In this document: one piece after another, positions 14,964-58,307 of the stretch
Layout of the letters: every line of letters begins with the position of its first letter
Numbering within the stretch: position 1 is the first letter of the stretch
Translations under genes and position numbers: made by a program
The notes under the pieces: model-generated
Database searches by the model: none
What the model saw: only the letters and a program-made list of their open reading frames with translations
Told to the model about the DNA's origin: nothing
Source: Mycoplasmataceae bacterium
GTDB taxonomy: Bacteria; Bacillota_I; Bacilli_A; Mycoplasmatales; Mycoplasmoidaceae
Assembly: GCA_031258945.1 (NCBI GenBank)
Contig: JAIRME010000045.1
Span: forward strand, 1 to 58,307
Length of the DNA stretch: 58,307 bases
Direction: 5' to 3'

Positions 14964-15025
14964 AATCCCCCCCCTTGCCGTCACATAATAGGTAACATGT
15001 ATTTAATTAGCAATGGGGGGGGATT
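14964..15025. repeat. Inverted repeat whose arms are C8 and G8
   Basis: AATCCCCCCCCTTGC at 14964-14978 is matched in reverse by GCAATGGGGGGGGATT at 15010-15025, one base bulged, with about 31 bases between. Both arms contain an eight-base G/C homopolymer in an AT-rich genome. Slippage in either arm would change the stem. Confidence 0.75.
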
Positions 15026-15067
15026 AATTGAAATAGTGCTATAAGCACTAATTTAGTTCTTTCTCTA

Positions 15068-15106
15068 AAAACAAGATCTTTGACAACGCCAAAGGTCTTG
15101 TTTTTT
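15068..15106 (+). terminator. Strong terminator-like hairpin in a surface-gene leader
   Basis: AAAACAAGA-T-CTTTG (15068-15082) pairs with CAAAG-G-TCTTGTTTT (15090-15104), a 15-bp stem with one wobble and a seven-base loop, followed by T6. It lies 32 bases before the start at 15138 with no promoter between, so it may attenuate that gene or end a small upstream RNA. Confidence 0.7.
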
Positions 15107-15137
15107 GTTGCTATCTGACAAAATTAAGGAGAGAAAA

Positions 15138-16475
15138 ATGATACAAAATAAAACAACTTCAATGCAAAGAAAACACCATAAAAGAAGAATGGTATGAACT
15201 AGTATTTTATGCGGAATAGCATTAATGGGTACAGGTATTGGTATTGGTTGGGCAATCCATACTTCTAAAAAAACTAACCCTGATTTTACCAACCCACAAA
15301 TTCTGTTAAAGAGAACGGAAGGTGATCCTTCTTTAAAAAATGAAGGTGACTATATAGAATACAATGTTGAATGTAATATTTCTTTATCTAATTTTACTGG
15401 TTCTAATGTATCTATTTCTGATATTGAACAAATTGGTCAAAATGGTCAAGGGTTTATATGACTAAGAGGTTATACTCCAGACACTCACGAAGTCCCCATA
15501 GAAAAACAGACTCGAATTATTTGAAATAATCCTGATGATATTAGTAAAGGAGTGCGTTTACATATTGAACTTATTAAAGACTATGATGGTTCATTAGGAG
15601 AGTTTTTACCAATTGATGTTACTTTTACTATCCATGATGACAAAAATAGATATGAAGACGTAAAAACAACTGCTCATGTTGTATTAGATAGCGACAATGA
15701 TGAGCCTGTTATTACCAATGATCGCATTAGTAATGTTTCAACCATAAACATGGGGATGAATCGCGATACAACGATTGAAGATATAGTAAATTATTTACAA
15801 GCTACTAATGAAAGCATAAGCGGAACACAAACGCTAAATGATGATTTTTTTAGCCAAAATATTAACCCTTCACAAGTAGCGGCCTTATTTTTTATTGAAA
15901 CTTTGAATATTTGAAAAAATTGTTTGGTAGATTTTTTCAACACATATGTGGATACAGAACAAGAATATGCTATGGATACTTCTTTTTATGATTTTTCTCA
16001 GTATACAATTGATTTTAGAATAGATGATATTATTTATTCAGGATCAGATACGTTTGGTAATAAAAAATTTTTCTGTTCTTTTGAACAAGAAATATTTAAT
16101 AACAATAATGAGACTATAGATCTTTCTGAAAGTGGTGCATATTTTGTACCAAAATATCCATTTCCAAAAGATAGTTCTGATACCTTCTACCCTTTTTATG
16201 ATATTCCATCCGCGTATTATTACGGAATTAATAAAACAATTTCAGATGTTGTATCATCTTATACAACATCAACTGAAAGGTGTGCGACTAATTTATCAGG
16301 AGGTAGTAATTTTTCAGCATCTCTCATAGATAGCAATGAATATATTTCTGGTAATTTGATAAATTTATGAGTATACCCATATCGTACAGGTGGCATATCA
16401 TTATTCAATCAAACTGATTACACTCCAACATCCATTGCGGAACTATTTTGACCAAATGTAACTTTCGCAAATTAA
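15138..16475 (+). CDS. Membrane-anchored surface protein of unknown function
   Basis: A 445-residue protein with a basic N-terminus (QRKHHKRRM), one hydrophobic segment at about residues 20-39 (signal anchor, no lipobox Cys) and a long polar, Asn/Asp/Ser/Thr-rich ectodomain. AAGGAGAG precedes the ATG. Four regions join only through UGA Trp codons. No family is recognised. It shares style (anchor plus polar beta-rich body) with the surface proteins at 24-40 kb. Upstream are the G8 tract and a terminator-like hairpin, so expression may switch. It converges with the helicase gene; the 129-base gap shows no clear terminator. Confidence 0.75.
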
Positions 16476-22500: not shown

Positions 22501-23274
22501 CTATTCATCATATATCATTATTTTGCAAAGAACAGACCCAGCTTGTTGTGTTGGTGAAATGGCTTTCAAGGTATAACCATATGTGCCAGCTGGTGCTGTT
22601 AATGTTCCTGTTATTGCCCCTGTGTTAGCGTTCAAAGTTAATCCTTCTGGTAAAGAACCACTTGTACTATACATAATATTGTCGCGAAGAGCACCGGTGG
22701 TATCATAACATTTCACATTATCGTTTATATTTACCGTCGCCCCAGTATTAATTAAATAGTCATCATCAACATTAGTAATAAATAAAGAATCCATGGATGG
22801 GTTTGTTCACATAGCATCAATAATTATCTTGTTTCATGACACTGTTGAAAGATCTGTTGTATTTATATCTACTTCATCATTTGTGCCTCAACAAGTAATG
22901 GACATTGAACTATATGTTGGTATTCTTTTAAAATAAATTATTGTTGTTCCTTTTCCTCCTTCTCCTCCTGATGTGGCACTGAAAAAAAATACATTCTGCG
23001 ATCTACTAAAAGAGTTATTTAATGAATACCTTCCAGTAGGACTTTTATCGTTCGCAGTGGTCGCGACAAGTTCATATGTTCCAATAGAATAATCATGTAT
23101 GGCATCCCCGAAAACAATGTCTGAATCAGAGTCCATAGCAAGGCATTTCAAAGTTTCAAAATTAGTGGCAAATGTCGGTGTTTTGGAACAGGCACTAATA
23201 AAAGATATCGGAAACGTAATAGATGATAATGCTAAGATTGGGGTCGCGAACTTTAATAATTTTATCTTTTTCAT
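22501..23274 (-). CDS. Lipoprotein with Ig-like (He_PIG type) domain, phase-variable promoter
   Basis: A 257-residue lipoprotein. The signal peptide ends in a lipobox (SFISAC, Cys29). The UGA at 22888 is Trp. The C-terminal 60 residues read SGSLPEGLTLNANTG and AGTYGYTLKA, the pattern of putative Ig/cadherin-like He_PIG domains that form extracellular stalks. It lies behind a promoter whose spacer contains a nine-base homopolymer, so expression probably switches. AGGAG lies 10 bases before the ATG. Ligand unknown. Confidence 0.85.
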
Positions 23275-23305: not shown

Positions 23306-23336
23306 ATTATAAAGTAATGGGGGGGGGAGTTGTCAA
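23306..23336 (-). promoter_or_regulatory. Promoter with C9 tract in its spacer
   Basis: On the - strand a perfect TTGACA (23331-23336) and a perfect TATAAT (23306-23311) are separated by 19 bases. Nine of these (23319-23327) are a C homopolymer. Loss of two C would restore the optimal 17-base spacing. Spacer-length switching is an established phase-variation mechanism. Confidence 0.85.
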
Positions 23337-23641: not shown

Positions 23642-24580
23642 TTATACTACTTCGTAACTAACAATAATTGAACCAAAATAATTGTCGCCAAAAGCTTCAA
23701 TATAACATACACCATGATTAGGTTCACTAGTTACCACTTGCGATCAAAATGCTTCTCATCCACTCAATGGAGTTGTTGTAGTGTTTAATAATTCTACTCT
23801 TAATCTAATGTCTTGTCTATTTGGTTGTTTGATAAAAGTACCTAAATTTTTGTTAACAATAATAGTATTAATATCAACTCCTTTTGGATATTCAAAAGTA
23901 ACTTGTGCCTGCCCGCTAAAGAACGAATTCCCCAAATTAACATTAATCATTGCACCAAAATCATTAAAATTAACAGTCAATTGCTGGAGTACTTCATTCC
24001 ATGAATGTAAATCTCAATCATTAGGTGAAAGTTCATTCATTGCAAAAAAAGTTTTAACCACATCTAATTCGGTTGGTTTCCCATCATAAAAAGAACCAAT
24101 ATCTTTTTTAGGTAGTTGACCAATATCTCTTTGTGCAAGATAACAAATAATTTCAGGTGATTTAAATTCTTGTTTGTGGACTGATGCAACTAATCAAAAC
24201 TTAAATTGTAAAACATCAGTTGGAAAGATAACATCATCGCGAAAAGAAATCGTTAATGAATGTGTTCCATCATCATCATTACCATGCAATCCTTCTATTT
24301 TTAAAATTTGATCTCAACTATAAGTATCTGGTAGATTAGAGTATTCAGTTCAATGAATATCATTTCACTTTATCCCTCCCCCCCCAGCATACTCCACTGA
24401 TAAAACTGTACTATTGTAATTAGTATTAACACAGCTAATGGACTCGTATGATAATGCATAATTAATGCTAACCTCATCATTCGACTTTCTCATTAAAAAT
24501 CAATATGTACAAAATCCGCCAGCACCTACAACTGTAAGCCCTATTATTGGCAAAATAATCTTAAGTTTCTTTTTTTTCAT
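23642..24580 (-). CDS. Surface protein with in-frame G8 coding tract (ON)
   Basis: 312 residues: basic start (KKKKLK), one hydrophobic segment (about 6-29) as signal anchor, and an Asp/Thr-rich ectodomain. Codons 66-68 are GGG GGG GGA, from a G8 homopolymer at 24378-24385. The frame is open through it to the TAA at 23642, so this copy is ON; one base gained or lost would shift frame near residue 67. Seven or more UGA Trp codons are used. The segment NSFFSGQAQVTF resembles FYTGSVTIT and MYTGEIKVVF in the preceding gene, suggesting shared repeat modules. It starts 35 bases after that gene. Confidence 0.8.
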
Positions 24581-57298: not shown

Positions 57299-58042
57299 TT
57301 AACTTTGCATTAAGCGACAAGCTTCAATATCAGCATATACAGTCACATCTTTATGATACAACAAAGACGTAATCGGTCAAATAGATGAATATTTTCCTTC
57401 AAATAATTTACTAATTGGTGCTGCTTTCGTATGCCCATCAGCTAAAAGAATTATCTTCTTAACATTTAATATTGATTTAATACCCATCGTTATAATCTCT
57501 GTAGGAACATTAATTTTTTCATCAAAAAAATTCATAAGATAAGTACGCGTGTTATTTTCTAATTTACCGATATGAGTGGTTGTATTAAATTTGGTATCTG
57601 GTTCATTAAAAGCAATATACCCATTGGGACCAACAGAAAGAATTAACAAATCAATTCCGCCTAATGTTTGTATTTGTTTATCGTAAATTTTGTAATTATC
57701 AAGAGAAGGAAAGTGTGTATTTTCTAAATTGATATCAATCCTAGAAAACAAAAAATTATTCATAAAATTAGTTTTAGAATATTTTTTGTATCTTTTGTCA
57801 ATATCAATATATTCATCAGTATTAAAAGAAATTACATTAGTAAAACTAATTTTATTTTTTTTAGCTTTTAATGCCATTCGCTCATATAACGGTTTAACAG
57901 TAATGCCAGCGCTAAAACCCAATACTGGTCGTTTGTTTTGATGCACAAAATCACAAACAACAGTAGATACTTTGTCCGTCATTTCCTCGCTATTAATGCA
58001 AGGAATAAATTTAATAACGTTCGTCTTACGAAAAAATGGCAT
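57299..58042 (-). CDS. nagB: Glucosamine-6-phosphate deaminase-like protein
   Basis: Family enzymes convert glucosamine 6-phosphate to fructose 6-phosphate and ammonia. 247 residues, near normal. The phosphate-binding GFSAGITVKPLYERM, SFNTDEYIDID (catalytic Asp kept) and SVGPNGYIAFNEP are recognised. In the last motif the usual GHIAFNEP His, which opens the sugar ring, is Tyr (GYIAFNEP). Activity is therefore uncertain. UGA at 57377 is Trp; the true end is TAA at 57299, one base past the convergent unknown gene. Divergent from the phase-variable lipoprotein. Confidence 0.85.
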
Positions 58043-58073
58043 AAATATAAAAGATTATTATATTATTTGTAAG

Positions 58074-58079
58074 TATAAT
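58074..58079 (+). promoter_or_regulatory. -10 of the terminal lipoprotein gene
   Basis: TATAAT six bases before the GTG at 58086; no Shine-Dalgarno. A - strand TATAAT for nagB lies at 58057-58062, so the two promoters are back to back. Confidence 0.55.
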
Positions 58080-58085
58080 CCCATC

Positions 58086-58307
58086 GTGAAGTTCAAGATA
58101 GTCAAATCATTATTAATATTAAACTGTGCAATTGTGGGGGGGGGTGACTCTTAGTTTATTTAGCACTTCGTGCTCTAAACCACAAACAGAGGTTGATCCA
58201 ACTGATTATGTAGGTAATGCAGACGGTAGTAATTGGAAAGGTTATGTAAGTGGGACACTTACATGTACATTTGATGATGATAACGGTTCTGCAACACTTA
58301 TTAATGG
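58086..58307 (+). CDS. Phase-variable lipoprotein, frame-shifted OFF by G9, 3' end beyond window
   Basis: From GTG 58086 the protein starts (M)KFKIVKSLLILNCAIVG and meets a G9 tract (58136-58144). With nine G the frame stops at TAG 58152-58154 after 22 codons. With eight G it continues VTLSLFSTSCSKPQTEV, a complete signal peptide with lipobox STSC, and stays open to the end of the window (VDPTDYVGNADGSNWKG and on). So the gene is a typical mollicute lipoprotein now switched OFF by one extra G, assuming no sequencing error. Confidence 0.8.

Follow-up and report, generated by a model that had tools for sequence, protein, structure and literature searches.

Does the far end of this contig carry a lipoprotein gene caught in a switched-off state by the length of a single run of Gs, as an earlier note proposed from the letters alone? 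The window, meaning the whole stretch of DNA that was analysed, is an entire contig of 58307 bp (G000:C35), and its end is a true contig end. It comes from an 835-kb Mycoplasmataceae genome in 46 contigs, 86% complete, whose closest named relatives are MAGs called 'Mycoplasmataceae bacterium'. The names of these MAGs resemble what we take to be a termite-gut series, and the organism is probably a wall-less gut bacterium related to the mycoplasmas, its sample host being judged from relatives only. TGA is a sense codon in the genes read, indicating genetic code 4, and neighbouring ORFs listed with table 11 therefore appear shorter than they really are; for the nagB-like gene next to the locus, table 11 gives 57377-58042, compared with 247 aa in code 4 (Table 1).

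As assembled, with nine Gs, the frame opens at GTG 58086-58088 and runs into TAG 58152-58154 after 22 codons, just as the note had read it. The TATAAT directly ahead suggests that the mRNA would be leaderless, beginning at GTG 58086. With one G fewer, the same start gives MKFKIVKSLLILNCAIVGGVTLSLFSTSCSKPQTEVDP... (GTG written as M), and the frame stays open to the contig end. This reading resembles the start of a prolipoprotein, with an n-region MKFKIVK, a core LLILNCAIVGGVTLSLF and the lipobox-like STSC, whose Cys codon lies at 58171-58173. The Cys is present and the -3 position is Ser, not L/V/I; other tract-bearing genes of this genome have LTSC, LASC and STAC in the same role.

The last 408 bp of C35, used as a query against the whole genome, gave a second match, the end of contig C1, at 98% identity. 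On C1 the run has eight Gs and is followed by an uninterrupted ORF of 412 codons, encoding an intact 412-aa lipoprotein. In Pfam, this protein matches LRR_5 at E 1.6e-33, with 115.8 bits against a curated cut-off of 27.7, which makes the product a BspA-type leucine-rich repeat protein. The remainder of the gene, missing from C35 because the contig ends, is thus found on C1 behind eight Gs, and the signal peptide and long open frame predicted for that length are present there, together with a lipobox-like motif that is relaxed at -3. The frame downstream of the tract is not decayed, since a second assembled haplotype holds the gene intact.

The overlap between the two contig ends contains the G9/G8 difference plus a handful of others, among which only the length of the G-run breaks the frame. 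These further differences indicate that C1 represents a genuine second haplotype, as opposed to a sequencing error; because they lie at several other positions, they also indicate two strains, which are not proven siblings of one switching event. In the relative L035, nagB adjoins a METRxERYRI (METRIERYRI) gene, followed by cmk, der and gpsA, and on C1 the lipoprotein gene is followed by the METRxERYRI gene, cmk, der and gpsA in the same order. This synteny shows that the ends of C35 and C1 represent one chromosomal junction, that is, one locus in two haplotypes, predicted from their frames to be OFF (C35) and ON (C1), and it rules out two paralogous loci. Judged by gene order, the lipoprotein gene is an insertion at the nagB junction relative to L035.

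Table 1. Features of the locus and of related tracts; positions refer to the window unless another contig is named.
Feature	Position	Strand	Remarks
nagB-like gene, glucosamine-6-phosphate isomerase family	57299..58042	-	Divergent neighbour; locus anchor in relatives
Stretch common to the C35 and C1 ends, ~365 bp	57943..58307	+	98% identical; starts inside nagB
TATAAT, probable -10 box	58074..58079	+	From sequence; 6 nt upstream of GTG
Frame as assembled (G9), predicted OFF product	58086..58154	+	GTG + 21 codons, then TAG
Lipoprotein gene, 5' part (signal peptide, Cys, mature N-terminus), frame-broken	58086..58307	+	Rest on C1, 412 aa, LRR_5
Poly-G tract, the putative switch	58136..58144	+	G9 on C35, G8 in C1 haplotype
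Predicted leader RNA; G8 (15015-15022) as hairpin 5' strand, then terminator-like hairpin	14990..15118	+	Upstream of a predicted surface protein, ORF 15105-16475
Further leader copies	C24:13160-13283, C36:208-331, C37:14323-14447		
C9 in predicted promoter spacer (TTGACA - 19 nt - TATAAT)	23319..23327	-	Lipoprotein gene 22501-23274
G8 tract within ORF 23642-24580	24378..24385	-	In frame as assembled

Homologues in other genomes show that the tract is shared by some relatives. A sister species (G043) has a homologue with 30% identity over 347 aligned positions (E 1e-36), which likewise starts with GTG, has TATAAT 8 nt upstream of it, and carries a G8 tract in the signal peptide that is in frame within a complete ORF. 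C1 and the G043 homologue, both with eight Gs, together support the earlier reading of a gene captured OFF, a state that we infer from the frame. An LRR lipoprotein of G009 likewise carries G8 within the signal-peptide codons, and its assembled version is out of frame. Near most of the best-scoring LRR relatives in the sister genomes, a G-run is absent, so the tract is no constant property of the LRR family; its presence in the G043 and G009 lipoproteins and its absence from most LRR relatives imply that the switch was gained or lost repeatedly. In another LRR lipoprotein (L086 of G006, near 327), we noticed C8 within a Pro-rich part of the coding sequence, directly preceding a conserved DYIGK/DYVGN motif and possibly forming another switch point.

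Long G-runs are a general property of this genome. It contains 69 runs of at least eight Gs, counted on either strand, and the window contains six runs of at least eight G or C, against 0.02-0.08 expected from the window's own run-length statistics. Third- and fourth-order estimates, which include the long runs themselves, give 0.2-1 such runs; with six runs in the window compared with fewer than 0.1 expected, the run-length statistics rule out a chance origin. In 249 kb read closely (30.5% GC, and picked to contain tracts, as the window was not), runs of five numbered 40, of six 2, of seven 1, of eight 34, of nine 26 and of ten 6. Among the sister genomes, the number of runs of at least eight Gs ranges from 0 to 67. 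The genome with 67 (G002) has neither a match to the leader described below nor an LRR match, and its tracts must therefore sit on other genes.

Within our genome, at least nine lipoprotein loci carry the tract in their signal-peptide codons; in the assembly some of these loci are in frame and others are not. Tracts also lie inside ORFs that, by inspection, encode an ABC ATPase, an ABC permease, a PTS-like protein and a MarR-like regulator. G8 runs in ABC transporter ATPase-like and permease ORFs were seen at C15:3934, C15:5859 and position 2840 of L124; the ATPase-like ORF is out of frame as assembled, and the run in the permease ORF is kept at the same place in G024. A further arrangement is poly-C shortly 5' of a -10 box, with an exact TATAAT 4-9 nt downstream in 15 of 70 tracts. 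Poly-C lies between -35-like and -10 boxes at 23319-23327 in the window, at C9:1828, C37:16535 and C24:13142, and in others, a placement that by analogy resembles transcriptional phase variation by promoter spacing. We also considered a tiny invertible promoter between paired poly-C and poly-G runs forming an inverted repeat, which was rejected, as the core faces the same way with respect to its flanks in all the copies that were read. Tracts are concentrated near contig ends, 18 lying within 400 nt compared with 3.1 expected (P about 1e-9), as one would expect where the assembly is interrupted by length variants or repeats. Finally, the 86%-complete genome yielded no MutS_V match in a search for MutS, in which controls matched in 11 of 14.

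As to mechanism and ALTERNATIVES, the best reading of these data is very probably that a surface lipoprotein gene undergoes phase variation by slipped-strand mispairing. A slip at the G-run would add or remove one G and would go unrepaired, mismatch repair being apparently missing. Eight Gs would yield the full signal peptide, the lipidated cysteine and a displayed 412-aa BspA-type LRR protein; with nine, translation would stop after 22 codons and no product would reach the surface. From the sequence we predict that the slippage is reversible, that the protein is lipidated and displayed on the surface, and that switching would serve to vary adhesion or recognition.

Two other explanations would remove the switch altogether. 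Single-base differences in G-runs are a common type of error in sequencing or assembly, and the G9 could be such a homopolymer error. Linked, independent differences nevertheless separate C35 from C1. Elsewhere the tracts measure 8-10 throughout, lengths of 6-7 being nearly absent, and assemblies of other species have tracts at homologous sites. Together these points make an error at this tract extremely unlikely. Alternatively, the frameshift could be fixed, the C35 strain having lost the gene and the C1 strain keeping it with no switching, and the few other changes between the haplotypes fit with this. Yet the sole disabling change falls in a 9-G run, the kind of site most prone to slippage, in a genome rich in such tracts, and the 222 nt available of the C35 gene show no other damage; we therefore regard a strain-fixed loss as very unlikely.

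Other explanations keep the tract functional and alter its output. If transcription or translation slipped at the run, both lengths would yield some full protein, and the tract would tune its level and not act as a strict ON/OFF switch. Ribosomal shifting has been raised for M. agalactiae, in which an out-of-frame P48-like protein was detected by MS (PMC2824730). Slippage of this kind could, however, coexist with switching at the DNA level, which it would soften, and as the explanation of the tract we consider it unlikely. An alternative start at GTG 58126 could in principle serve the G9 state with a short-signal version, giving protein in both states with two N-termini, as no stop follows in its frame before C35 ends and the Cys is retained. 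The product, MQLWGGVTLSLFSTSC, would lack a positive n-region, though, and the sequence offers neither a ribosome-binding site nor a promoter adjacent to this GTG, so we give this start hardly any weight. Slipped-strand phase variation of the DNA thus remains our preferred reading.

If so, a known mollicute switch is now placed in an uncultured lineage, and what is unusual is its scale, with 69 long G-runs in 835 kb, as well as a second use of G-tracts, ~20 of them forming a strand of an RNA leader hairpin. So many tracts suggest that stochastic control extends over the entire set of surface proteins. BspA-type proteins are believed to act in attachment, and the switch may decide to which cells or gut protists the bacterium binds. 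Both tract states are present in public assemblies.

A side finding concerns a leader of ~125 nt, present in ~20 copies in the genome upstream of surface-protein ORFs. The 18 aligned copies fold with the G-run as the 5' strand and a pyrimidine tract as the 3' strand of a first hairpin, P1; a terminator-like hairpin, P2, follows and ends in Us ~50 nt upstream of the start codon. Of 36 genomes of the genus, 9 contain the leader according to a covariance model, and four of them (G000, G024, G042 and G021) have many copies; outside the genus, other families of the order gave only weak matches (E >= 3e-7), and no Rfam family matched it above threshold. Across 56 distinct leader sequences, 95.2% of cells pair, compared with 45-61% when the structure is slid. 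The same sequences show 185 double changes vs 43 in shuffles, a count that leans towards structure, as the alignment was fitted to the model and holds mostly paralogues. In an independent MAFFT alignment of 41 leader sequences, compensatory changes were found in 14 of 23 pairs.

The G-run strand of P1 itself varies little across copies. That it pairs is supported by its partner, which stays pyrimidine, by the G021 leaders (L156-L160, for example G021:C12:35020-35153), in which (GA)n of varying length replaces poly-G, and by leader copies lacking a slippery run (L161, L162), in which the purine strand is kept and interrupted. G024 appears to hold both poly-G and (GA)n leaders. Our tentative proposal, which we hold to be possible and not yet probable, is that in the gut Mycoplasmataceae G-tracts act simultaneously in three places, namely signal-peptide codons, promoter spacers and the P1 strand. 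The leader would then represent a family of phase-variable RNA attenuators absent from Rfam, for which any slippery purine repeat pairing with a fixed pyrimidine strand would suffice. If true, replication slippage would retune an RNA structure, not a reading frame. The family may be new. One group of surface proteins (window 15105-16475, C14:1-520, C40:4079-4527 and C33:1-1752) shares an N-terminal motif like xYLKWKKHRR...GxGxGxxYAIW and a single N-terminal membrane anchor; two members tested against Pfam gave no match.

Poly-G switches are well known from other bacteria. The contingency loci of Campylobacter and Helicobacter comprise many G-runs of 8-12 in small, AT-rich genomes in which surface functions are switched; they differ from the present case in belonging to unrelated bacteria and acting on other genes. 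In M. agalactiae 5632, the spma genes, which encode surface lipoproteins, have poly-G of up to G13 in the 5' UTR (PMC2824730). By analogy, the leader tracts described here, with poly-G upstream of surface genes, may be comparable, although no RNA structure is reported for spma. Candidatus Mycoplasma girerdii, another Mollicute, switches leucine-rich BspA-like surface proteins through simple-sequence repeats; these genes are often OFF as assembled, metagenomes yielded length variants, and the nearest 16S sequences come from termite gut and rumen (PMC5476646). Its tracts (n=20) are mostly dinucleotide, with one G8 in a mod gene, whereas poly-G dominates here (PMC5476646). Closest in design are M. 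bovis P68 and the M. agalactiae P48-like gene (MAGa1620), where a G8-G10 tract decides whether signal peptide and lipobox are in frame (PMC2824730, its ref. 48). Both they and the C35/C1 locus combine a Mollicute host, a lipoprotein gene whose 5' end contains poly-G of 8-10 and a one-base frame toggle, represented here by G9 (C35) vs G8 (C1) at the same locus. The P68/P48-like protein is, however, a basic membrane lipoprotein, whereas ours is a BspA-type LRR lipoprotein: the Pfam search with the C1 product gave LRR_5/LRR_8 only and no P48/P68 family membership. Our locus also differs in its GTG start right after a -10 box, in its uncultured lineage and in the ~70 tracts of its genome. The design is therefore already known in Mollicutes, and the gene described here combines the poly-G of the P68/P48-like system with the protein type of Ca. 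M. girerdii.
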